The notes under the pieces are model-generated. The model had not been told where the DNA came from and made no database searches. It saw only the letters and a program-made list of their open reading frames with translations. From Branchiostoma floridae (lineage: Eukaryota; Chordata; Leptocardii; Amphioxiformes; Branchiostomatidae): DNA of 64,000 nucleotides. The position numbers and the translations under genes were made by a program. Shown here piece after piece: positions 8,653 to 50,500 of this stretch. How positions within the stretch are numbered: position 1 is the first letter of the stretch; each line of letters opens with the position of its first letter. The stretch lies in assembly GCF_000003815.2 (NCBI RefSeq), contig NC_049994.1:15634975-15698974 (forward strand), written 5' to 3'.

Positions 8653-11600
8653 CTGGAATCAACAACAACTCAGGTTCAGNNNNNNNNNNNNNNNNNNNNN
8701 NNNNNNNNNNNNNNNNNNNNNNNNNNNNNNNNNNNNNNNNNNNNNNNNNNNNNNNNNNNNNNNNNNNNNNNNNNNNNNNCCTACAGGAGATCATAAGATG
8801 TTGTTATGTTTACATTTATGGAAGATAAATTGCTTTTGCTCTGTTTCTCCTTCTGCCTGAAGTTCTGGGACATCCCAAAACTACATGGAGACGTACTGTG
8901 GCTAAAGACCTAGAGGCCATTGGGATCCCCTGGGATGCTGCTCAGCCGCTAGCACAGACCAGACCCCAGTGGAGGAAACTAATCACAGCCTTATGTCCCA
9001 CATGGGATGAAGAGGATAAGTAAAGTAAGTAAGTAAGTAACTGATGTCTGAGCCTCACAATAGCTATCCAATTGTTTGAGGAACTTTTGTATTGAACATC
9101 TAACCTTTGTCAGCATCTTGATAGCCGCGAGGTTGATGGGATACTCTGCCGTCTGCACGATGGGACACAGGACACGGACACACTGCTCCGCCTGCAGGGA
9201 GTTGGCAGCTGTACTGCAGGTCTCCTCTGCAGCACGGACAACCTGCATCGAAACTTCAAACATTTAGTCTTGCTGCAATTGACTCTCCTACTTGCTTTCA
9301 TGCTGAATAAAACATTTGGCCATTGCGTCTAGCATTAATTTGGGAATCAGTTCATTTGTGTATCAAATTATTTTTCAGACGCAGTATAACATCTGAATGC
9401 TTGTTTAAACCATCTTATACAATGTCTTCAATACTCTTTGCATTGTGTAAACAGATATGATGCAAACATTTGGCAGCAGAAAACATAGTTTTCTAAGAGA
9501 TCCATAATAATCAATCTTTAGTTCAAATGACTTGTCATTTTTGTCAAAATGTAAAAACTATCCGCAAACTTGCCTCTTTCTGTACATCCTTGTGAGCTTC
9601 CAGAATCTTCATGATGGTCAGCTCAGCGTAGCTCTTAAATCTGGCCGGCTGGTTCCTCAGGATCTCGCGTAAAATTACAGGATTTACTGTAAATGCATTT
9701 AAGTTTGCGGGGATTTAATTTCGCGGTAACACCATCTACTGCAGTCTAATACCTTAATAGAAAAATGTTCGCGGTGGATTTAATTTTCGTGGTAAAGTGG
9801 TCGCCGACTCGCCGCGAAAACCGCGAACATAAATCCACCGCGAAAATTTCTGCATTTACAGTATATGTATTGACCAATACAAGATACAAATGTATACTGC
9901 ATGGAGCTATCCGTCTCTTTACTCAAGGAAGGAAATATTGTAAATGTATGTAAGGAATTAACAGTATGTGTTGCGCTTTTGTACAGTTTGTAGTGTGCCA
10001 TTTTGGAAACATTCAAATAAGTTTCTAAAAACTAAAAAAAAAGGATAAAGAGATGAAGGTAAACAAGCTGCTCTTCAACTTTGGGTGGGGGTAGAAGAGG
10101 ATTTATGTGTATTTTTCATATACAAGATATGCTGCAGGGAACTATCTATATTTATGTTTTCCTGGAGGAGAAAACATATTGTTTTGCTGGTACATTCGCT
10201 TTTTTTCTTCCTCCAAGCAGAAAAGGTTTTGAATAAAATAAAATAAAAGCCAATCCACTATAAGTCTGCAAAGAAGGCTAAGGAATGACTGGAAAAAAGA
10301 AAAAGAAAAGCCAAGCTGGCTAAAACTCTATTTTGTTTAGCTTTACCAACTGAAAAGTTGGCACCTAAAATCTATAGTTGCCTTAACTATTAGAGTTCGA
10401 AGGTACAAATGTATATGAATGATTGATAGTTCAGATGTGTGATGTCATTGAGACGTGTGATGTCATAGAAACGCGTGCCCGTGTGATGATGTCATTGATA
10501 CGTGTGCCAGTGTGATGTCATAGATACGTGTGCACGTGTGACACCAGAAAAGCCTCTCCCGACAACCCCACCATGTACCAGCGCTCACCTCAGTCGATGC
10601 GCCACAAACTTCGATTTGTCTTGTCTAAACAACAACAAAGTAAAACGTGCAAGAATAAGCAATTATATGGTGCATATTAAAAAAAAAGCAGAAAGCTCTT
10701 CTAAACTACTGCTGAGTTTGCTCTGTGAACAACTGGTGCAATCTATAAAAAGGTTGTGTATGTAAATTGAAAAAAATATGAGCAAAACATATGGGCATAA
10801 AAGACCTTTTAATTTTGGGCAAAATACCAAATACGAACCTCAAAATCGCATCTCTTTTACCAAGGACAAGTATCTCGACCTATACTTTTTTCCAAGACTG
10901 AAATTTCAGCAATATTTATGTACAGATATCAGACTTCTGTCAAAAAGTTTGCAAAAACTTTTACATGAGTTAATGAGTTAGAGTGTGGTGTGAATGAAGG
11001 AAATATGCTGCATGTTACTTTGCAATTCGAATTCCTACCTTTCATCGTGATTGGATAATTCCCTCAGGAGTTCTGCTATCATCTCTGATTGGTCAAGGGG
11101 AACAGCTGAAAGAACAGGAGCATCTTGGGTGAAAAAAGACAAACTTACAGAAACCTATGAAAGAACTCAAGCATCTTACACAATATACAAGATGCGTTGA
11201 TGAAAGTTAGACATCGAAGTATTAAGATAGCAGTTGGATATGATTTTGTGAAGGGTCAGATGTTCAGACAACCATCCAGTGTCTTTCGTCAGTGACAGTT
11301 GCTTGAGTAACTGCTTTTTGGCATATAATATACAAGATGTGTAACTTTAGAATCAAGTCAAATCCAGTGAAGTTTTAACTGCTGAATATTTATTGCTCAT
11401 CACTTTTCATGACACATGTAAATGTAAATAGCAACTTTTCAACAATCTGTATATTACTAGGTCTTTCAATAATGTATCTTTCAATTTGAAGTATCTATTT
11501 GTACAAGAAACTTACATCCACAAAAATCTTCATCAAATGTGGCCTCTGCTAGAGCTGCTCTATTGTAGGCATTCACATTGTTCTGAAATAAAAGACAGCC

Positions 11601-14600
11601 ATATTAGTTAGCAGTAATCAACCATACCTTTTTGCTATTTTCCCTATCAAAGTTTCTATGAAAGTTCTTCATACATAGCTATCTTCACTTTGAGAACCTT
11701 CATCCTCCTCCTACGACAACCTTAAGAGGTTTAGGTGTGATAGGTCATTCAGTGTGATATAACCAGCTGCGAAGCTGGTGTGTTAAGCCGAATGCCGGTT
11801 ATACAGGCTATATAGACACAGATACAGAAGTACACCTACCTCATCTTGGTACTGAGTTGGGTTGTAGAGTCCCTGCTTTTTAGAGTGGGAATCCCCGGCG
11901 TGGTCTGTGTGCACGATCTTGGCGTCCGGGCTGTCGGACCGAATGTCCGGCATAGAGCTAGTGATTCCACTGTCTCCTGAAACCTGTGGAATCATAGATA
12001 ATCTATGAAGTAAATCACATCTGTAACAGTGTCAGCAATCAGACCTGAGTGACATTCTTACATCTATACAGTTGCTTTTCGCTCCAACGTTTATCATATA
12101 CTATAAACAGTCGTTTCTCGCTCCGACTTTTATTATACACTATGTACAGTCGCTTCTCCGCTATTCCATCGGGGAGCATTGACATCTCTAACATCTGGAA
12201 TCTTCACATTAAGGAATGGGTTCAAGCACTCATTCTTTCTTGCGGGAAGACCTGTTGTCATCGAACAAGCGCTTTAGAACCCATTCCTTAATTTGCTCAT
12301 TAACTGACATCACCACCAAAAAATTTGAATGTACAGTTCCCCAGATAACCCAGACGGGTAGCAGAAGCGAACATAGGAGTGAACTACTACACGGATGGTA
12401 TCCAGGCTAGATACTACTATGTAAAACAGTGGATAAATTTATGTAATACCATGATTGTTGTCACCTTTATAATTACCTCATCACTGTCTTTTTTCTTGTC
12501 TAGTTTGATCGGTTCGTGGTCGTCGTGGTGAAAGTTGTAGTTCTGAAATTCTGCCGTCATTTGTCGGAGCGAGTTGTACATTTCCTGGTACTACTACTAC
12601 TACTACTACCACTACTACATTGTACATACCCAGAACATGATTTTTGTCACCTTTATAATTACCTCATCGCTGTCTTTTTTCTTGTCTAGTTTGATCGGCT
12701 CGTGATCGTCATGGTGAAAGTTGTAGTTCTGAAATTCTGCCGTCATTTGTCGGAGCGAGTTGTACATTTCCTGGTACTACTACTACTACTACCACTACTA
12801 CATTGTACATACCCAGAACATGATTTTTGTCACCTTTATAATTACCTCATCGCTGTCTTTTTTCTTGTCTAGTTTGATCGGCTCGTGATCGTCATGGTGA
12901 AAGTTGTAGTTCTGGATTTCCGCTGTCGTTTGTCGGAGTGAGTTGTAGATTTCCTCGGAGTTCATGTTCTCGGCATCGTAGTCCACACTGCCCGCGGGAG
13001 AGGCGTTCCGGAGGCTACCAAGTCTGGCCAGGGGGGAGGTCAGCCCGCTGCGAGGGGATTGCACGGGAGTCGTTCTTCTGGGGCTGCCCTGTGGGAATCA
13101 CCAATGAAATACGTTTAAGTCACGTCGATGAAGGTTACAGATCTAAGTAATAAGATACGCCAAAAAGCACTTACTCAAGCAACTGTATATGATTTTGGAA
13201 ACGGTCAGATGTTTCAAACAACATCTGTTGTCAGTGTCACTGATGAAAAACAGTGGATGCTGTTTGAAACGTCTTACCATTTCCAAAATCATATCCAGCT
13301 GCTTGAGTAACTGCTTTTTGGCATAAATATGTTTAAGATTTAATCTAAGATACTTAGGACAGCAACAAACTTTCTCAGACACGGATAAAATTGCCTTCTC
13401 ATTCAATTTACTCTAAGGTTACATAGAAGTCCATTGCCTTGTCGTTACCTGGTTAGCATTGCTGGTGTTGCGTAGATGGTTGTGTCTTACCTGGTTAGCA
13501 TTGCTGGTGTTGCGTAGATGGTTGTGCAGTAGTTTAGTGGCTCCGTCCTGAAAGGTCTTGGGCAGAACTGACAGCATCATGCTGAACTCTGGGGTGTTCA
13601 GCTCAAACAGACCAATCAGCACAGCTGAGGCCGCCTGTGGACACAAAGGGTTCAAAACTAAGTCCACATTACTGTAAATGCAGAAATCAAAACTGAACAT
13701 TTTTCCATAGTAGTAAGAGACTACAGTGCATGTTGCTACCGCGAACTTAAAACCGCCGCAAAAAGTCCCTTTTCCCGCTTCAGCAACATTAATTCCCTGC
13801 GAACTTAAATGTATTTAAAGTAATTGATAACAACATGGGATCAAACTGGTTGCCTTTGTCAGCGTAGTCCTGTATTTCTGTGGCAAGGCGGGTCTACCAT
13901 TCGTTTTTCATTTTCCTTAGTTCTGGTTGTGCATAAGACTGGACTTCAGCTAGCCTGGCTCTGATGGCAAGGTGCCTTGGATCAAACACAATACACAAGT
14001 CTACATGGTAGGTGGTCCTACATTTTGTTGATACAAACAGTTGCCTTTCCTCTATTCGAACATTTGCAAATGAATAAAGAGTAAACAAATATAGAATACA
14101 CTGTTTTGCATCTAATTTATGTCCGAAACGAAATGCGCCAGAAATTGAACAAATTTGGTGCCCTCGAACAAAAAGTGTTCCGACAGCAATGTTCCAACGT
14201 CCGAATCAAGTATTCGAATTGCCAACCGTGCCACACTCGGCCCGCTCGAAATGGTTCAATTTACTCGAAGAAAGCCTGTGTGATACAACTTTCGAACCTG
14301 TGTGATACGGAAGTTATCACACGGTCCAGAGCACCCATATAGAACGTTTTCGCATCACAGGAATGACATAAAATAATTATTTTCTGAATAATACACATAA
14401 CTGATTTTGATGAATGGAAGGCTAGCTATGAACAGCCACCAAAGATTCAGCACCAAGGCTGTACCCTATGGAAAGCTATTAATAACAGTATCACTTTCAG
14501 TACCAAGGACATGAACAACCGTTTATTTGATCTACTCTACTAAAACATTTTCAGTCCCAAAACAGACAAAACATTTTGTGCGACTCAACCACAACTGTTC

Positions 14601-17600
14601 CAAGATTTCTTGTAATGATTTATATGTTCCTCTGCATTTCTGTAGGAGCTGCCTAGGCAGACCCATGTAATGACTTGTCTCATCGTCAATAAAGTCAAAG
14701 TCAAAGATTGCCCCAATCCTGCTGCAACCCTGCCATATGTAATACAGTAATTCAAATCATTCCGACATCTTCCATTTTGTTTGTATAGCCCATGGGCCAG
14801 ACAGACCTTTACAGTAGGTGCTAGTCCACTGGTAATACTAATAGGGTGTGTTCAACTCAAATACTCTTTTTCAAAAGTGCTTTCTTACCTTTCTAACTTC
14901 CACACTCTTTGGCTCGGTGGTCCATGTGATGATGCGCGACACGGCAAGCCTGGTCTCGGAGGAGTTGATGAAGTCCTGGGAGTATTTTCTATTGTTTAAA
15001 CAACTCTGAAAGCCGACAAAGTCTAAAACCTTCTAGAATTTCTTTCTTACCTTTCTAACTTCCACACTCTTAGGCTCGGTGGTCCATGTGATGATGCGCG
15101 ACACGGCGAGCCTTGTCTCGGAGGAGTTGATGAAGTTTTGGGGGCATTTTCTATTGTTTAAACAACTCCGAAACCCGTCTAAAACCTTGTAAAATTTCTT
15201 TCTTACCTTTCTAACTTCCACACTCTTTGGCTCGGTGGTCCATGTGATGATGCGCGACACGGCGAGCCTGGTCTCAGAGGAGTTGATGAAGTTTTGGGGG
15301 CATTTTCTATTGTTTAAACAACTCCGAAACCCGTCTAAAACCTTGTAAAATTTCTTTCTTACCTTTCTAACTTCCACACTCTTTGGCTCGGTGGTCCATG
15401 TGATGATGCGCGACACGGCGAGCCTTGTCTCGGAGGACTTGATGAAGTTTGGGGGGCATTTTCTATCGTTTAAACCACTCTGAAAGCCAACGAAGTCTAA
15501 AACCTTCTTAAATTTTGATCTCCTACCTTTCTAACTTCCACACTCTTTGGCTCTGTGGTCCATGTGATGATGCGCGACATGGCGAACCTTGTCTCGGACG
15601 AGTTGATGAATTCAATTTTCTATTGTCTAAACAACTCTGAAAGATGGCAAAGAATTTCTTTCTTACCTTTCTAACTTCCACACTCTTAGGCTCTGTGGTC
15701 CATGTGATGATGCGGGACACGGCGAGCCTTGTCTCGGAGGACTTGATGAAGTTTGGGGGGCATTTTCTATCGTTTAAACCACTCTGAAAGCCAACGAAGT
15801 CTAAAACCTTCTTAAATTTTGATCTCCTACCTTTCTAACTTCCACACTCTTTGGCTCGGTGGTCCATGTGATGATGCGCGACACAGCGAGCCTGGTCTCG
15901 GAGGAGTTGATGAAGTCCTGGGGGTCCATGAGCACGATGAGCTGCTCCATGTACCTGAGCAGCGCCACCTTCACCTTCAGGTTGGGCGTCTGGGTCTGAT
16001 CCACGATGAACCGCATCAGGATGTTAAACTGCACGTCGTACGGGAAACTATCCCTGTTGTCAAATGTGAGAGATTTATCAGTTTTTAATGTTGAACCAGA
16101 ATGAACTGAAGGGTTTTAAAGTGAAAATAGAACATTTGTACAACCTGCTTTAAACTAGTCTTACAACACCTTAACTTGAGCTTTTACACAGGCAGGAAGG
16201 CCATGTAGGCAAACATATATGCCAGCTCACATAGCTGTGTCAAAAACCTTCTGTACAAACCCCATAACCTGTCTGAGCCCCTTAGCTACAGACATGTATG
16301 ACTATACGTTACATGTATATCATCTCACCTAGCTGTATCCAGTGCCTTCTGTACTTTAGCCTGTACAGACCCCCTAACTTGTCTGAATCCCTACCTACAT
16401 GTGTGACTGTACATGTACATGTATATAGTCTCACCGTGCTGTATCCAGTGCCTTCTGTACTTTAGCCTGTACAGACCCCAGCAGGTCGGCCCCAAGTTTC
16501 TTCAGCAGCTGGGTGAGCAGGACATAGAGCCAGTCTGTCAGGTCTGCCTTATGCACCATCAGTAAGTCCACCAGAGTCTCCAGGAACAGGCTGAAAACCT
16601 TCCCGTGGGGGTCCGCAAACATGCGGTTAAACAGTTCCGTCACCCGCTTCAGCTCAGCACGGCTGGGGGGGAGACAAAGCAAAAACTTAGGTTAATTGCA
16701 TATTTTATGAGTCATTATAGGCACCAGAAACCACATTTGCAAAACTTGACACTACATGTAATAATTAAGGGAGAATTTAAATGAAAAACAAGACTTCATG
16801 GGTATAACACAGAAAGAAACTGAACAAAAACGTAAAGAATAGTAGACTCACAAAGCCTTCTGATAGAAGCTGTAATGTCTAATGACTGTAAATTTCTTTT
16901 TTCAACAGCATCAACACAGAGTCTTTCTTTCCTCTTAACACCGGTGAAAGATCAGCTCTTCAATTTAGCAGGCTTCACAGATTTGAAATCACTTATGCTT
17001 TTTTCACACGCTAAAAACGATATCAGTCCAAATATGTACTGATTGCCATTTTCAGCTTTACAGTACATATCAGATGGGATTACCTGAGCATCTGGTTGGC
17101 CCTGAGCATGGCCTGTAGCCCCAGGAGTCCATCCTTCCTCTCCACCCAGGATGCGAGAGGTCTCCACAAAAATAAAGCATATAAAGAAATGAAACATTGA
17201 AACATAAACAGTACCTGAGCATCTGGTTGGCCCTGAGCATGGCCTGGAGCCCCAGGAGCCCGTCCTTCCTCTCCGCCCAGGAGCTGCTGGCACACTTGTT
17301 CAGGATCTCTGCGATGTCTTGTTGCTGTGGTAGAGAGTAAAGCACTTGTCACAAACAAAAACAGCAGGATTTTTTGTGTCTCACACTTTTAGTGTGTCTC
17401 ACACTTTCACATACATGTAACCATTATAAATTTAAATTCTTTTAAATTGTTAATTTGCTGTGACAGAGAGAAAAACACATGTCACAAACCAAAATAGCAG
17501 GATTTCTCGTGTGTCACACATAGAAGCTGTAATGACAAGTGAAGTGGTGAACATCTTTTATTACTCAACAGCATCAACAGATTCTCTCTTTCCAACACCA

Positions 17601-38600: not shown

Positions 38601-41600
38601 CACTGTCCATTGACATGATATCCATAAGTACCTTGCTTTTATAACCAACGGATATAGGTTACCCGCGGATAAAGGTGAACTTGCGTTACTTGTACAAAGC
38701 AGAATTCTATAATTTTCCAAAGCTTTCAAAATTTTTGTTAGGCACGACCACAACAAGCTTACCGGTCTCAGAGCCTGAGGAGCAGCCTGCTCACAAGCCA
38801 AGCAGCGGAAAACACAAACATACGGCAGTTAGAGACAACCACACCATGGCTTAATACTATCCATTGGGCATAGAATTAATACTGGGTGCTTATTCACATT
38901 TGTCCAGCCAAATTTAGAGCTGTGTAGCTATTTTTTTACTGTGGGTGCACTGGTGCACAGAAGCGTTAGGGACAACCGCACCATGGCTTATTACTTAGCA
39001 TTGGGCTTAAAATACTGGGCACATAATTTTTTATGCAATTTTGTTCAACCAAAGTTAGAGCTGTGTAATGTTACCTTACTAGTATCTTTTTACTGTGGGT
39101 GCACCATTGCACAGAAGCGTTAGGAACAAGCATTGGGCTTAAAATACTGTGTGCCTAATATTATGCAATGTTGTTCTGCCAAAGATAGACCTGTGCTGTG
39201 CACCTATCTTTTAATTGTGGGTGTATCAGTGCACAGAAGTGTTAGGGACAATCACATCTTGGCTTAATACTGAAGCATGGCCTTAAGCCCGTTACACATA
39301 GCCAACAATGGCCTCCAGATCAACATTAGACAATGGTTGTGATATTGTCTGTGAGCAATGTCATCTGTATACGTAGTTGGGAGTTAATCAGCAAGGTGGC
39401 CTACTTGTCTTTAAAAGTCGTCTGTACAAGTAACAATTTTGAAAAATTAAAGCCGAGTTTTATAATTCTTTTTTTTCCTTATTACTTTCCTTTCTTTCAT
39501 ATTTTCACACCAAACCTATCAAAAATGAAGCATCATACTTTAAAAGGTATGCATATATCAGAAATTACTTAGGGATTGTCCCCTCCCCCAAAAACAACCA
39601 ATTTATTGCTCTTTCCTTTCATAGTAAGCTAGGTAGCAACTACTTTGTAAGAACACTTGTTTGTAAGAAATATGTCAAAAACCTGATGAAAGCCGCATTT
39701 TAGATATGGGAGAAAGCTCAGGCATGAATGAACCAATTCAATCATGAAGCACATCCAATCATTCCTTTTGTAGTCCATTATTTGACATACATGTATGTAC
39801 ATGTACATCCCAAAATTACTATAGTTATGCCGATACCCACCTAAGGAAGCTGTCGCCCCCGCTCTCATATGTGCGGTAGACAACATGCCTGTCCCCAGCC
39901 GCGTCTTGGCACGGGAGGCCGCAGACATGTCGATGTCGCTACGGGAACGGGACAGCGGAATTCCAGCGGGCGTCTTGGCATCTGCTTTGTCTGAGAAGAC
40001 ATTAGGAAGAGTTCATTAATATTTCTCATAAGAAAGTTGCACTTTCTTGATGCAAGACAACTGTCAACACCATGAAAACATAATAAAAAAAAATAATCAG
40101 GGTACATTTGCAAGTGTAATAAAAGAAAAGTAGCTTGATGCCTTTAAAAAGAAAAACATGGATTCTTCAAAGTTTACCAGTAGTTGCAGAAAAGGCAGGA
40201 AAGGAAAAAAAAAACACAACCTGACAGTGTCAAATGTTTGAAGCAACATTCTTATACTTATAAGTTAGAGCAAAAATATTTTCAAATTATCTGGACACAT
40301 GTTTGTACCAATTTCACCACTGTGTATTCCCCATCAAGAACAGTGCATTATTCTAAGGTACTTTACCTTTCTTAGGCAGCTTAGAAGGAGTCGTGCATGG
40401 GGCTGTATGTGTTCTGCGAGCGCTGTAGGAATAGCAAAATGTACATGTACATTGTTAACAAGATCCAGTATTTTGCTTAACCGTCGTTAGTCTCTGCCAC
40501 TGATGCACGGCACTTTGATCCTCTTAGTGCTTCGTAGATTCTGTTGGGATCCATCTCTGGGTCTGAAGAACTCTCACCAGGCCATCACAGGTTCCCTTTG
40601 GTTGATTTGTCTTTATGTTCGATCTCTAAGTAATTTGAGTCTTTGCTACTCTTGTTGTTAGACAGTATCACACAACATTCAAGGCAGTTTTAATGACAAG
40701 GAGGGGTGACACCAAAGAATAAACATAAGGGAACACCTCGGTATTAAAACCTAGTTTGTTAAAATAACTGTCAATTATAAAATCATGGTAGAAAAAGTAA
40801 GGCTGTTGGGGTTACAATTTCTTAACAAAATAATAAACACAGAAACCGTATTAAGGACTGAAATATAATGTTATTCCTGAATGAAATATGATGTAATTGT
40901 AAACAATATTACGTAAGGGAAATTAACAGAAAGAAAAGAAAAGGGGGTTCCATTCCACCCACACAACACCAACCTTCCCGGTACAGACCTGACGTTTTCC
41001 GAGGACGACGCCCGCAGGCGCGTGGACTGCGTTGCCAAACTGTCAGACGAGGCGGAGTGCGCCAGAGATCCCAGGAGAACCTTCTTCTGCGCCGGAGTGA
41101 GCAGCTTCAACAGGTTGTCGCTCAAGTTGGGGTAGTGTTCCTTGAAGGCCCAGAAACATCTAGAAGAAAAAAGTCAAGGTCATGTTAGCTCTCTTATTAG
41201 ATTTCTAAGACTTAAAACAACTTGCAATAGTACAAGTGTGTTCATAATAACATATGGTACATAAGAATGTCAGAAAAGCAACAGGTTGTTGCTCAGGTTG
41301 GGGTAGTGTTCCTTAAAGGCCCAGAAACATCTGGAAGAAATTCAAGGTTAGGTTCAGATCTTTTACCAGACCACCAAGTCTTTATATAGCTTATAATAGT
41401 ATGTCACTTAGTCTAGCAACATACGGTAGATATGAATGACATGAAAGCAACAGGTTGTCACTCAGGTTGGGGTAGTGTTCTTTACAGGTCCAGAAACATC
41501 TGGAGAAGAATTCAAGGTCAGGTTAGTATGGAGTTCCTTAAAATTCAAGGTCATGCCAGGATAAGGTTCCTTAAAGGCACAGAAACATCTGCAGAAGTAG

Positions 41601-44600
41601 TGAAGGCCAGGTTCAGGTCTTAAACAAGCATAGCAAGTCTTTGAAATAATGAATAAAGCTAGTTCCACTGCCACTTCTATAACTGAAGTTAAAATGAGAA
41701 ACATACGACAGGAAATAGAGCAACGTACCTCTGTGATGATACACTTTACCAAGCAATGTTATACACATTAGCAGAAAGTAACACTCACTAACAGTATGTC
41801 ACTAGATTCTACTTACTCTCTACATATACTGTTTATGAGTAACTGGACCCAAGTGTTAACTTAGAAATATTTTGCAATCTCTACAACAAATTTTCACATA
41901 TTTTCCTGTACTTGACAACAAAGGTTTGTAAAAAGAAAGTACACTCATAGCACTCAATTGCAACTACAAGGACATCCACAGTGTTTTGGCCTTCCAATGT
42001 TTCCCTTTCCTTCGGTAAAGGATACTGGGGGAGTGAGGCAAACAAATTATGTTTGTATCAACAACTCACTTAAATACAAAGAATAGGGGTTGTTTTGTGT
42101 CTTGTTTATGCTTCCTTGGTTATTCAGCTGGCCACCTGCAAGAAATATTCCCCAAGCCAAGTTCTTTTTCCTTCCAAACACAGTTAAGTAAATAGTAGAA
42201 AAAGAAAACAACAAAGAGTCATGTCTTTGTCCATGAATACTTCAATCATTCTAATAAACTTTTGATATTTTCCATTCTTGTCCAGGGATTTTTGATGCTT
42301 TGAATTATACCTACATTGTATAAGCTGCTGTATATGGCTCACAGACAAATGAAAAAAGGACGTAACTTACTTTCTAGCATCTACTCTTGCTTCAGAGTCT
42401 GCATCTCCTATACCATTCTTGATTGTTTCTACTAGAGTTTGTGAGTGTCTGAAAAAAAATCAGATTAAACATTACAAATCATTCAGGATTCTGATGTTAA
42501 CTACTGCATAGTGTTTATAAACCTACTTTACACAGCTTAACGTAAAGGAGCATAAAAGTAGAGAAAAATGTTTCTAATTTCATTTTGGTGCCTGATAGCA
42601 AAATCACTTGTCAATGATTTGTACGAACAAGAAAATACATATCAAACATAAGTACCTAACAGATGTGCATGGTCTCGACATTAGACTGGTGCACAGTACC
42701 CATAGCATTTCCTTTCAAAACATAATACAGAACTTAATTAATTTTGTACTTACTTTTCTAGAGTATTTGTATCCCACGATCGTAACAACAGGTCTAGCAG
42801 TTCAAATGTTTTCCTAAAAGGGAAGAACAAGAGGTACATTTGTAAACTGAAAACCACAGGCTAACAAATAATGAAGTAATAATATAATTTATGGCCTACA
42901 GAGAACTAATTCAAGAAAAGAAAAGAAAACTAAGAAAAATTGCTGCAGTTTGATTGTCTTATCGAAATATCTTCAACAAAACTTTCAAAACTAAATTCTT
43001 TTCAATTTTTTTTCAACAGAAATGGCAACTGTATCAATCATTGCCTCAAGAAACCTGTTTATATAGCTATTACCAGATGCATATCTTTTTGCACTGAGCT
43101 CTTTTGGGGTGTACAATACTCTAAATGCCTGTAAACATATGTTCAAAGACCTTTATGGTAGGTTGATTTACATGCTGTGCACAGGTTCAGTTCATAACCA
43201 TTTTATTACATGCCAAACTTTTCACTCACAAACTGTTCTTTCCTACTATCTCTGAATTCCAGAGAGTGAGTAGGAAGTAAATTTAGAGTATTTTAAAAAT
43301 GTATATGCACACAGACATTTGTGGTTTGTTGATTAAAGTACTGTGCACAGGTTCAATTCATACCTTTTTTTCTGTAAAAACTTTTGATTCACAGGAAAAT
43401 TCAAATAAAATGAATATAAAACGTCGTCCATAATGCTCTTTTGGGGTGTAAATACTCTACAAATGTGTATGCACAGAGAGGGATTTTTATTTACATACTT
43501 TGCACCATTTTTTACATGTCAAACTTTGCACTCACAAAATGTTCTTTCCTACTATCTCAGAATTCCAGACAGTGCGTGGAAAGTGCCCTTGGGACAGAGC
43601 AATTTCACATGAGACTAACCATGACATATATTATATATAGTGAACCTGTAGCTCTGAGATTGATTTGACTGATATATCAGACAGTCCTACATTCGCTGCA
43701 ATGCTGTCTGAATTACAATCACAGAGTTTCACCTTGATTTATTAAGAGATGTAACACACTTAACCGTACATACTCAGGAAAGCTATTCTATTTCTTCGGG
43801 TTTGAACAGCTGAGCAAAATAAAAATGGTACATTACATAGAGTACACTTTTTATTGACTGTCAAGTTCTTTGCACCAACTTTACAGGATCAAAATAAATG
43901 TGCAACTAGGTGAAATTGTCTGAAGCATGTTTCCATTTCATTTGGAGTTTTAATGTTCCTTTGCACTACATTTTTCATCACTTGAATTATGAAGTGCAGA
44001 AAAAATATAGTATGAGCTTAAGACCATTTTAAGAGAAACCAGTCATGGCTGTGTGCTTTATTCAAACAATAGAAGATGAAAAGCATCGTCTTATGCCATT
44101 CCATTGATCCCTGACCAAACAAATTAATGCATGGAATTTTGCACATATAACAAAATGAACAACCATGTGCTTTACAACTACAACTTGTATCTAAATTCAG
44201 TTCAGATCACAATCTTTGCAAAAAAAATGCTTAATATAACAAAACAGCAACAATCAATTTCAAGCTAAAAGAGGGGGGGGGGAGTTTTAAACCTATTTCA
44301 ATTTGTCTTTTAGACATTGTACTCCTCGTATCTGCAATATTTATTCATTATGATATTCATGCTACTTATTTGTATTGTTTATGTTACAATGTTATGTTCT
44401 TGTGAGTGATAAGTTAGCATTACACAATGTAAACAAGCCTAACAATTCTGCTTTCGAGCCGCAACTTGGCTGTGAAACAAATAAACCATTCTTTCTCAAA
44501 AACATTTCTTTTCTTCACAAGTGAACATGTACAAGTAATTACTTTGCTGAAGCATGTTCTGGTAATGTGGCCCAATTACCTCCTTGAGAAGCAGACCGAA

Positions 44601-47515
44601 GTCTGAGGTACATTAAGACAATCAACTGTGACAGGGAGCCGACAATGTCATGAATACCAATTAAGGGAATTACGGTAAATATTCTAGGGTCAATCCTTTA
44701 CTTCCTATACTTAGGAAATTTTTGCTCTTGAGAGGAGAAGAATGTAAGGGAAAACCAATGGAGGAATTCACATTTTTAAAGACTGAAGTCTGAGGCACAT
44801 TAAGACAATCAACTGTGACAGGGAGTTAGCAATGTTGTGAATACCAATTAAGGGCTTTATTATTCTAGGGTCAATCCTGTACTTTATATACTTAATAAGA
44901 TATTTTTGCTTATGAGGGGAGAAGAATGGAACTGAAAACTAATGGAGGACTTCACATTTTCACAGACCACCAAACTGCTTGCTACTCTGTCAACATCCCA
45001 TTGCATTCTAAGGGACTGTACGATATTTATCGGGGGGGAGGGCTGGTGCGTTAGGGGGGGAGGGCCATGTTAATTTTTTTTGAGGTGGGGGGAGGGCCAT
45101 GTTAATTTTTTTGAGATAGGGGGGAGGGCCATGTTAATTTTTTTGAAATAATTGTTTATATTATTTTTGCTTGATATCTTGACATGGCCCTAATACTGAT
45201 AAAATAAGCCTTCTGAATAGCCTAAAATGCAAGAGCTTCCGGGGGGCTTCGCCCCCCTTGGTCCCCCAAAGTGGCGCTGCCCTGGACCAGCGTTCCCGCC
45301 ATGCATACGTCATTCCGTCTTCGGACTTACTTTTTTCTGGAAAGACGCACTCGGCTCGGCTGAGTTTCCCCAAATATCAAAGTTACAAAAGTGCTGCGCG
45401 GTAAATATGTAAAGAATCCAAAACTATATACTTTATTTATTTATTTTTTATTTACAACGTAACATTTCTTTTGTTTCAAAAAGACAAAATTTGCGGCAGA
45501 AAATGGGCCGCAATATTGTTGTCAAGCGTCGATCGAGTCGGCTGTGCACATGGCGCGGCACGCCCCCCTCCCCAGACGGACTGTCGATCGCAGCGCCCAG
45601 CACGTCTTTTCTGGCTATTCCTTCAAGGCTACACCGGCACTGATCACTGCCAAAGACGCAGCAGATCGCCCTCCTTCGTATAATGTATAACGTTCTTGGT
45701 CTATGTAAAAAGAAATCCAGCCAAAGATTTCACGCCGAAAACGGGGTTACCTGAGGTCGCAAGATACAAACGCACGCTCGTGGAAAATGACGTCGCGGCC
45801 TTGTAAAACCCGACAGATTCGATAAATTTGAGTAAAATCATCGGGCAAAATAGAAAAAAAAAACACAAGGTGTGATGGCGCCGTTATTCTATCCTCTGGA
45901 AAAATGACTAGCATTTGATGCGGGAGGGCGCAACATCGATCCCACAAGGTAGACATTTTTTTTATTTAATGCCGGAAATTGGCAGGATTTTTCCATGGTC
46001 TGACCAAGGAGCTTTTCTGACGAACTCACTGGCTAGAGCCCTGTTTGGAAGCATCAAAAACCCAAAATTTTCATATAGACATGACTGGACAAATAATACC
46101 CGGGCCAGATCACGGACTGCTGATTCCCCGTGCTTTTGGTGGAGAGGTCGGACGTCGATTTAATACTGAAAAATGGAAGTAAAACATTCAATCTCAATCT
46201 CAAGTGCATGATTTTCCTCTCAAATTGCAGGAAATTCTGTTTTAGAGGGTTTGAAAATCCAAATTTTCCCGGGGTGGCCCCGGCCCCGGACCCCTGCCCC
46301 GACACTGTGAAAAAATCCTAGCGAGAACACTCAGGCTATACCAGTTGGATGCCGGGCGCCCTTGTGCCCTGACATCTTTATTAAGATTATTTTATCGGTT
46401 GTTTTTCTACCCTTTTAATGATGCCTGTCGGGGGGAGGGCCATGATGATTTTTTTGAGGTGGAGGGGGAGGGTCACGTTAAATTTTTTTGAGATGGGGGG
46501 GAGGGCCATGAAAAATTTTTTTGACTGGACTTCCAATGCACCAGCCCTCCCCCCCTGATAAATATCGTACAGTCCCTAACTGCATACATGCGCAATATTC
46601 CAATACATTGCATGCACATCCAGACTGTTAAAACAAGACATTCTGCAAAAAATGACCGATATGTACCCCCCCACCCCCATGACAGAAATGGTTTGATGGT
46701 GTGCAAAATGTGTCCTCCTCCATTCTTGTTCATTATTACAGTCATCTACTACTAACTTCAACTCTTGCAAATTTTGGTGTATCAGTGTATCAGTTTTTTT
46801 TTCTTTAAAAAAAAAATCACGGGTTTTAGTGGCAAGCGTGCAGGTGTTGACACACAGGCAGCACCAAATCCGTAGGTGTTTTTGGCACCTTTAGACAGGT
46901 TAGCCGTGAGGCTCGGTGGGCATCACTCCACCGTCATGGGGGCTGGGGCATGGCGAGTATCAAACTCAGGACCAACTGATTCTTATTTCAACGCTATAGT
47001 TGTTGCGCCACACAGACATCCCCCAAAAAAGAGAGAGAAAATAAGAAGTTGTACTGACCTTCTGATGGCAACAGACTTGGAGTTGTGATGACTAGTGATG
47101 ATGGGGATCAATCTATGGGCGTGGGTGTACTGGGGAGGGGGGAATAAAACATGTTTACAAACATTCTCTACAAGCACAAATTCTTAGATTGAAATACAAA
47201 ATGTTATGTCACAAAATATCGCTTAAAGTTAAACACTTTGTATTCTCAAACTGACATTATCATAAATAGCATTGTTGGGACTAGAATAAATTTCTAGTCC
47301 AAACAATTGTTATCCTGAAAAAATTTTTCACTTCATTTCACTAAGCATTTCAGATGATTAAATTACGTAAATTTGTTTTACATATACAAGTGACTGAAAA
47401 TCTTATCCACAAAACCTGACAGAGAGAGAGAAGAGAGAGATAGATGATGAGGAGAAAGAGAGAGAGAGGAGAGAGAAAAGAGGGAGAGGGAGAGAGAAAA
47501 AGAGAGGGAGAGAGT

Positions 47516-47564
<49 letters not shown>

Positions 47565-50500
47565 GAAGAGAGAGAGATGGGAAAGAAAGGGGGGGGTGGA
47601 AGCAAACCAAGTTCCTTACCTGTATAATAAACCTACAGGTGACGGCTCCTGCCGTGGCCATGATTTTTGCACTGTTGGGGATGAGGTTGAACAGGTTGGG
47701 CATCACCACTTCCGCAAAGTGGTCAAACTTACTTTGTAGCCTTTGTGCTAAATAACTGCGGGGAAAAACAAGGGAAAATCGTAACTTTACATTCAACAAC
47801 AAGTTGCAAAGCTGCTATTGACAGAATTGTTCGGAAGTGCAGTGTGAAGACAAGCCAACTGTAGCCCACCACTATGTCTTTGTGCTTAATAACTGTGGAG
47901 AAAAAACAACGGAAAATCATAAGTTTACATTCAACAACCGGTTACGAAGCCGCTTGACAAAGAAGTTTCTGCACCAGTTTCAGGGACTGAATAGTTAGAT
48001 TCAACTTCTACACAAATTTAGGTGTCTTGTTTTCATCTTGTCTTCCTGATGAATACTATTTTCATTAAAATATCAAAATTTATTTCTGTAAACAAAACAA
48101 TGCAATATGTTTAGTGTGGCAAAAAGCTTATTAGAATCAAGGAATACTCTGATTGCTATGCTTTTATCTTCTTGTCTTGACTGTTAGTGTTACCTGCCAG
48201 AAGATCAGGTTTTGGGGGAGCATTCGTGTGTGTGAGTGTCTATCGACATGATAACTTGAGAGGGCCAAGATGGACAATGTCTTGATATTTGGCATGTGGG
48301 TAGGTCTTGTTTTTACTTTGAAGATGAAAGAAAGAAGGAAATAGATATGCATGCCCTACAACTTTATCGCATCACAAAAAGCTTGTAAGACGTCCTACCT
48401 TAAAGTAATACATGCTTCTCTAACTACTTGTGAGCGCAGGTCTCTCACAGCCAGCTTGAAGACCGGCTCCAACAATTTCAGCTGCTGAAAAAAGTTGTCG
48501 TAGTCCATGGCTCCGTGTACGAGCAACGACCTCACTTTTTTTATCTGGAATAAGATATAAAAAAATCATATCATTATCAGCAAGAAATGAACATACACAT
48601 GTAGAACATGATAAGTGCATAAAAATACTGTAAATGCATTTAAGTCCACGGGAATTTAATTTCGCGGTAGCGGGAAAAAGGACTTTTCGCGGTGGATTTA
48701 AGTTCACGGTGAAGTGGTCACCGCAAAAACCGCGAACATTAATCCACTGCGAACATTTCTGCATTTACAGTAGATGGCAAAGACCATAGTTGGCTCTACA
48801 ACCCATTGAAAAGCAAATAGGGACCCCAATGTGGCCTGCTACTCTCTGAGTGGAGCTTGGTGGGGAAGATTGTTATTATTGTTTATCAAGGTTTACGGCA
48901 TTTGTGTTGAAAAACAAAGGCCATCCCACCAACCTCTGCTTGAAGAGTAGCATCTGCCTGCTTCATTCATGATGAAAGTAAATCAAAGTTTTTGAGAAAT
49001 TCACAAGAAATACGAAGTGACAGTTTAGAACACTTACAGAGTCTACTCTCTGTTCCCAGTCACATTTGTCGTCGCCCAAGGTATCCTTGATCTTGTGCAT
49101 GTGATCCTCGAGATCTCTGGCTGAAAAAAGCTGCAGAAACAAAGAAGAAACAATTTCAAGATGACTTAAAGCCATTGTCACTGTCACTATACATGACTAT
49201 GTACCATGTAAGTGTATTATTTCAATGACTGTCATGCACACTAAGTGTAGTACAGTCAAACCTGTCTATAGCGGCCACTCAAGGGACTGGAGAAATATGG
49301 CCACTATAGACAGGTGGCCACTATAGAGAAAATGTTGATCAATTGACCATGAGCAAGCTACACATGATTTCAGTTCCCACTAATCTTTCTCACCAAGTAA
49401 CATTGTTTCGATCGGTAAATTCACCGACAAAGACTTGCACTTTAATGCTACCGCCAAAATGACCCTGTTGGGAATTCCAAATCCTCGCAAATTACAATTT
49501 CAAACTCGGTGCAGGGTGACATAAGGCTGAAGTATGGTTGCAATAGGCAGGGTTTCTGTATCGACGGGACTGGAAATCGTGTGGCCGTGGCCGCATTGGA
49601 CAGGTGGCCGCTAAGCCTATTTCTTAATCATTACGAATCCAAGGGACCGACAAAAAGTGGCCACTATGGCCAGGTGGCTGCTATACAAAGGTGGCCGCTA
49701 ATACAGGTTTGACTGTACTTCTAAATCATTTTTTTGTTGTCAAAAAGATAATGGCGTTAAAGTGGCTGCCACAATTAGCAAAATAGGTACTAGTTTATCT
49801 ATGTTTATATAGCTATATATTATTGATCACAACCCCCACGACATCCCAAAAGCCCTGGTTGTCTTGAACTCTTCGACTGCTTCAGAAAAGACAATCCAAT
49901 TCATTTAGGCGAAAGTTGCTAAGAACATGTGCTCTCATCGACAATTGCATCTTACTTACTTAATCCCATCTTAAGAAGTTTTCATCAAATCTCAGCATTA
50001 CTTACGTTGACTTTTGGGACCTCTTCAAAGAACTTGATGAACATCTCTTCGTCCGCTCCTCCCGCACCCGCAGACGAAGACGGGGCGAGCGGCGGCTTCA
50101 TGCCTGCTGATGCCGGTCGCCTAGGTGGCGCACTGGACACCCGCTTCGCTCCCGACATTCTGGATACCTGCGAGGAACAAGACAAGAATTGATCAATGTC
50201 TAGTTCAACAGAATGTATCTGTATCTTTGTCTACTAGTATATACCTGTTGCCAAGGTAACTGCTCTTCATAGTAACACACCATCTTCTGTATCCGTGATA
50301 CTATAACTGGTAAAACTGCTCTACAACATTACACACCAGCTTATTAGTCTGTATCTGCATCTGTAACCATGGTGTAACAGCCACTCAGCGTAACACACTA
50401 GCTTTAAAATTTAAACGCAACATACCAACCTGGAGGAACAGAAACAGAACAGAAAGAACATGGGTTAAAATTGAACAAGGGCTTGTCTGGTTACCAAAAA

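Follow-up and report, generated by a model that had tools for sequence, protein, structure and literature searches.

The minus strand of a 64,000-nucleotide stretch of Branchiostoma floridae DNA (the window) carries what its predicted exons identify as a CLASP gene, with a tandem array of partial exon copies inside its TOG3 domain region. The TOG domains are most like those of CLASP1/2 according to structure-chain matches, with 3woz matching four exons and 4k92 one; 3woz_A is the TOG3 chain of CLASP2 (CLIP-associating protein 2). Pfam was weaker than the chain matches, placing CLASP_N on the TOG2 exon below its cut-off and yielding no CLASP model on the TOG3 exons. The matched exons are as follows.

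47755-47620, minus strand: TOG2 exon, matching the CLASP1 chain 4k92_A (E 1.1e-12)
17324-17215, minus strand: TOG3 exon, 3woz_A residues 5-36 (E 2.6e-10)
16662-16435, minus strand: TOG3 exon, 3woz_A residues 41-114 (E 4.1e-35), ending in phase 2
16053-15831, minus strand: authentic TOG3 exon of 223 nt, entry phase 2, donor phase 0, 3woz_A residues 117-190 by phmmer (E 1.3e-32)
13634-13491, minus strand: TOG3 exon, 3woz_A residues 191-232 (E 2.7e-18)

A run of 100 N at 8680-8779, beside the last CLASP exons, indicates an assembly gap there. Elsewhere in the window, two separate minisatellites (45055-45150 and 46430-46524) have a similar 32-33 bp GGGGGGAGGGCCATG unit. A minus-strand open frame at 1034-1232 (31 protein letters, not shown) gave no match in Pfam, and we take it to resemble the start of AGAP proteins.

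Six tandem partial copies of an exon 3' half and its donor follow the authentic exon at 16053-15831. The features of the array are given below, with splice scores in bits that derive from approximate consensus weights and not from a trained model.

14873-15924, minus strand: whole tandem array (exon 3' half, donor and spacer), TRF score 1469, 6.7 copies
15716-15857, minus strand: 142-nt exact tract comprising the last 27 nt of the authentic exon, the donor and the spacer and running into copy 1
15667-15783, minus strand: copy 1, from TTTCAG to AAG/GTAAGA, 117 nt, phase 0-0, open in the TOG3 frame, acceptor 8.0, donor 10.4
15527-15636, minus strand: copy 2, TTTCAG of 8.9 with the frame lost in the shortened 140-bp unit
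15363-15479, minus strand: copy 3, in-frame cassette of 117 nt, phase 0-0, TTTCAG acceptor 8.0
15207-15290, minus strand: copy 4, exon part, TTTCAG lost (TTTCGG)
15051-15134, minus strand: copy 5, exon part, with TTTCGG in place of TTTCAG and, for splicing from the authentic exon, a single weak in-frame acceptor (1.0)
14889-15005, minus strand: copy 6, in-frame cassette of 117 nt, phase 0-0, acceptor 8.0, adjoining unique intron

An earlier sequence-only reading had described six extra tandem copies of this exon half with its donor, spaced at 140-164 bp and with three units that are multiples of three, and both the donors and TRF confirm this layout. The seven GAAGTTAGAAAG/GTA donors end at 15831 (authentic), 15667, 15527, 15363, 15207, 15051 and 14889, giving donor-to-donor steps of 164, 140, 164, 156, 156 and 162 bp, of which three of six are divisible by three. 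TRF detects a 156-bp unit plus a 304-bp higher-order period. Each unit is composed of an 84-nt exon block followed by 56-80 nt up to the following block. The exon parts of the seven sequences show 2-6 differences per 84 nt in all 21 pairs, with no identical pair (0/21), and a range this narrow rules out chance as the source of seven near-identical blocks.

The array is open without splicing, as had been noted, with an open frame that measures 165 codons from stop to stop (15033-15530) rather than the 127 originally given. It runs through copies 3-5 and ends in the spacer after copy 5. We do not regard this openness as evidence of coding, since near-identical units whose length is divisible by three will share an open frame, while the three remaining steps, of 140 and 164 bp, break the exon frame. 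Read-through of the authentic donor is likewise rejected because the frame stops nine codons past it (KVGDQNLRRF then stop). The 165-codon frame matched 12 Pfam families, the best at 2.1e-5 with no stretch passing alone, and Mab-21_C at 25 bits lay just above its cut-off of 24.1; the query being repetitive, these matches were taken as noise. An Rfam search gave no match.

Exact tracts indicate that exchange between units extends to the real exon. The 142-nt tract recurs exactly 304 nt downstream in the stretch from copy 2 to copy 3 and, since the authentic exon end lies within it, exchange has reached the exon itself. A second exact tract of 149 nt, beginning in copy 3, is found again 156 nt further downstream and is common to copies 3 and 4. 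The authentic donor reads GTAGGA, the same as in copy 2, and the five remaining copies read GTAAGA. Of the 15 spacer pairs, 13 diverge by 11-25% and the other two by 0% (gaps aside). Past copy 6, the unique intron has GTAAGAAAG in common with the copy-5 spacer; after GTAAGAAAG no likeness between the two was detected, with 399 of 500 shuffles scoring as high. A search of the window for the source of the copy-5 spacer returned matches inside the array alone, and the spacer may have been added as filler when the array was founded or may derive from intron sequence that has since been lost.

The exons flanking the array are collinear with CLASP2 and a standard transcript should skip the copies. 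The array sits between exons matching 3woz residues 117-190 and 191-232, with no room for an insert at 190/191. Since the four TOG3 exons tile CLASP2 TOG3 in this way, we infer that the DNA from the authentic exon to the next exon, array included, is intron in the standard transcript. Such skipping is not obvious from the sequence because of the strong donors and TTTCAG acceptors of the copies. Donors score 10.4 bits in five of six copies compared to 8.5 for the authentic donor, and TTTCAG scores 8.0-8.9 in four of six copies compared to 4.3 for the authentic acceptor. For splicing from the authentic exon, strong in-frame acceptors are found in copies 1, 3 and 6 and weak ones in copies 2 (1.4 bits) and 5; copy 4 has no in-frame acceptor of at least 0.5 bits. 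In-frame routes from the exon ending at 16435 reach every copy, the best scoring 7.7 at copies 4 and 6 (61 nt), and would swap the TOG3 exon for a short remnant.

The motif CAATAG had been proposed as the point of entry from that exon. It is indeed present ahead of copies 2, 4, 5 and 6, with GATAG at copies 1 and 3, and splicing to it from the phase-2 end at 16435 would give the anticipated RKCPQNFINSSE for copies 4 and 5 (first residue by eye). We reject CAATAG as a likely acceptor: it scores 0.9 bits (1.4 at copy 2) versus 4.3 for the authentic acceptor, and at copies 2 and 6 the better acceptor TTTCAG stands 17 nt upstream. Entry at CAATAG would yield 100 nt instead of the 223-nt TOG3 exon, with 41 residues lost.

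Duplications of exon boundaries recur throughout the gene. Self-comparison and TRF identified 23 loci with tandem duplications. The gene span (8500-50200) contains 15 of them, and seven of these 15, the TOG3 array counted, span an exon boundary (five donors and two acceptors). Random placement gave a mean of 3.2 boundary-crossing loci (P 0.022); with loci padded to at least 300 bp the mean was 3.9 and the enrichment weak (P 0.066). These counts are approximate: the 22-exon list is partly by eye and probably lacks one exon or more, five TRF loci were added by hand (13440 among the seven) and an AG microsatellite locus was dropped. Affected donors belong to the exons starting at 17324, 16662, 16053, 13634 and 13088 and affected acceptors to those starting at 41159 and 47755. 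The five donor-affected exons look successive, the first four by their 3woz residues and the fifth by eye. In addition to the TOG3 array, the following boundaries are duplicated.

47741-47959, minus strand: acceptor-side duplication of TOG2 exon 47755-47620, one copy
41108-41642, minus strand: acceptor-side duplication of the exon starting at 41159 (CFWAFKEHYPNLSDNLL; CLASP identity by eye), two good copies and one decayed by eye
17081-17282, minus strand: donor-side duplication of exon 17324-17215, one copy, with a spacer of ~60 bp unlike the right flank
16251-16479, minus strand: donor-side duplication of exon 16662-16435, one good copy and one decayed (by eye)
13440-13526, minus strand: donor-side duplication of exon 13634-13491, 42-bp unit
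12450-12955, minus strand: donor-side duplication of exon 13088-12846, two copies, 183-186 bp unit

The layout of the TOG3 array, in which part of an exon and a few intron bases are duplicated with an unrelated spacer in between, is similar at 17.2k and also at 12.9k, where 27 intron bases are shared. Both 12.9k copies form open 108-nt phase 0-0 in-frame pieces with a weak acceptor (2.3 bits), and the 17.2k copy offers a 78-nt in-frame route (acceptor 3.0). Exon 13088-12846 was assigned to CLASP by eye and has no Pfam match above cut-off; the spacer of its duplication contains a TAG-rich microsatellite. At 13440-13526, splicing from the second rather than the first donor would lengthen the protein by 14 in-frame residues (VRHNHLRNTSNANQ).

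Coding differences among the exon copies are mostly silent, as the earlier reading had judged by eye. Across 28 codons of the seven TOG3 sequences there are 11 distinct changes, eight silent and three replacement (P 0.005 under a null in which the authentic exon changes silently only and the copies drift freely). The replacements are N to K, common to copies 1 and 3, and L to F and V to M, both private to copy 2; copy-specific silent variants include TCT in copy 4 and CTT in copy 6. Changes confined to a single copy are silent in four of six cases (P 0.03-0.09). No replacement change is seen in copies 4 and 5, where the good acceptor is gone, a weak observation given how few changes there are. 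Pooled over six arrays, 25 of 35 changes are silent and 10 replacement, with 11.6 silent expected and a count as high in 1 of 200,000 simulations; the short array at 47.7k and the decayed additional copies of the 16.3k and 41.6k loci were not pooled, an omission that favours silent changes. Silent and replacement changes number 3:1 at 17.2k, 2:0 at 16.4k, 8:3 at 15.8k (TOG3), 0:0 at 13.5k, 8:3 at 12.9k and 4:3 at 41k, and only the 15.8k and 12.9k arrays are significant alone.

Similar structures have been described in amphioxus. Globin genes carry tandem repeats across exon-intron boundaries, named mirages after work on Adh3 (PMC3087553). In the parts of that paper drawn on here, the BflGb9 mirage repeats an exon's 3' boundary in units of 157 bp, while that of BflGb6 duplicates the end of an intron and the start of an exon in 150-160 bp units, with 6 and 3 units in two haplotypes. 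Many units keep AG/GT signals, units are homogenised and a model of intron gain is proposed; Adh3 data and globin RT-PCR suggest, according to the authors, that mirages leave regular splicing undisturbed. Troponin C and PGBD5 also carry mirages (PMC3902484). All of these resemble the CLASP array in being minisatellite-like tandem duplications of exon-intron boundaries. The known globin mirages are characterized by units of ~150-160 bp, homogenisation within a cluster and boundary units that are set apart (PMC3087553, PMC3902484). In the CLASP array, six of six copies have the exon 3' part and a GTA donor, and the two exact tracts together with the 304-bp higher-order period indicate homogenisation within the cluster. 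Unlike known mirages, CLASP has seven affected boundaries in one gene, five of them donors, and its array displays a measured silent excess and three copies that are in-frame phase 0-0 cassettes. Among the matches listed in a search of the open-licence literature, no mirage paper mentioned CLASP, and by comparison with the described cases the CLASP array is likely a new member of the amphioxus mirages. The Rogers model, as cited in PMC3087553, derives new introns from tandem duplications bearing AG/GT sites, and potato RdRp is a case of intron gain by tandem duplication (PMC4974935). The CLASP array is comparable in that duplicated splice sites could make a repeat into a new exon or intron. 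It differs in showing no new intron or exon, and its authentic exon junctions still match CLASP2.

Taken together, we consider it probable that the array is a minisatellite of the mirage type that arose at the edge of an exon and is normally skipped and homogenised by exchange with a constrained exon. Among the three original readings, that of a minisatellite originating in an exon is the best supported and matches a described class (PMC3087553, PMC3902484). The array may have been founded by a tandem duplication of the exon 3' half and donor, together with a spacer absent from the right flank, and unequal exchange would then have amplified the units. The authentic exon would splice from 15831 to 13634, with the array removed as intron, and unequal crossing-over or gene conversion would homogenise the units, reaching the authentic exon end as well. 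We read the silent excess as a product of such exchange: copies that are snapshots of an exon under purifying selection keep its protein sequence without being used, and the six extra copies are probably unused. Use of the copies would also give a silent excess, which does not cleanly discriminate between the two. The lean of the private changes toward silence means that exchange would have had to copy silent variants of the exon, or that there is some use of the copies.

Alternatively, the copies could act as cassette exons, which we judge unlikely. Copies 1, 3 and 6 would be entered at TTTCAG and left at AAG/GTAAGA, so that between one and three modules of 39 residues, each with the ending FIxSSETRLAVSRIITWTTEPKSVEVRK, would be inserted in frame at VRK/AAS and tune TOG3. 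The three stop-free 117-nt cassettes with their 8.0-bit acceptors and 10.4-bit donors are consistent with this, as are the silent excess, private changes included, and the in-frame pieces at 12.9k and 17.2k, but a copy would be in frame by chance about one time in three and an insert would interrupt a conserved TOG domain. The weak or missing in-frame acceptors of copies 2, 4 and 5 and the absence of replacement changes from copies 4 and 5 despite poor acceptors also argue against it. The idea of a reservoir of alternative exons retains an in-frame TTTCAG route for three of six copies and loses the proposed CAATAG entry, which is weak (0.9-1.4 bits). Dscam1 is a mutually exclusive tandem exon array and, like the CLASP gene, contains a series of closely similar exon sequences side by side. 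In contrast, the CLASP copies are half exons that hardly diversify the protein, and a strong in-frame acceptor for splicing from the authentic exon is present in no more than three of the six. Published mirages, moreover, are reported not to disturb regular splicing (PMC3087553). It is more doubtful still that copies 1, 3 or 6 are sometimes spliced in via TTTCAG, with exchange with the authentic exon keeping the modules current; if so, the TOG3 domain of some CLASP isoforms would carry between one and three additional HEAT-helix modules of 39 residues.

We give similarly little weight to the idea of a conversion reservoir, with the array rewriting the end of the authentic exon largely as a by-product of mutation and not as an adaptation. 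The 142-nt tract, which includes that end, and a donor shared with copy 2 and distinct from the other five, including the copy beside the unique intron, point to such rewriting, but one haplotype cannot tell direction, unequal crossing-over gives the same tract and there is no sign of benefit. The earlier suggestion of a gene conversion source thus holds as far as the tract goes, which establishes neither direction nor function. An assembly artefact, with haplotypes or misordered reads of a shorter repeat merged into one contig, is very improbable: the 149-nt tract common to copies 3 and 4, the 100-N run in the window and a published mirage said to be aberrantly assembled in the genome draft (PMC3087553) would agree with it, but 21 of 21 pairs of exon parts differ and six further boundaries of the gene show the same pattern with sequences of their own.

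If the array is, as we favour, a normally skipped mirage, it extends a phenomenon found in few lancelet genes so far and proposed as a source of new introns. The most valuable parts of the finding are the number of affected boundaries in one gene and the measured silent excess. With seven boundaries, five of them donors within 5 kb, CLASP constitutes a compact natural system for asking how splicing ignores several decoy exons whose signals outscore those of the real exon, and whether the coding sequence of the copies is preserved by exchange with a constrained exon or by use.
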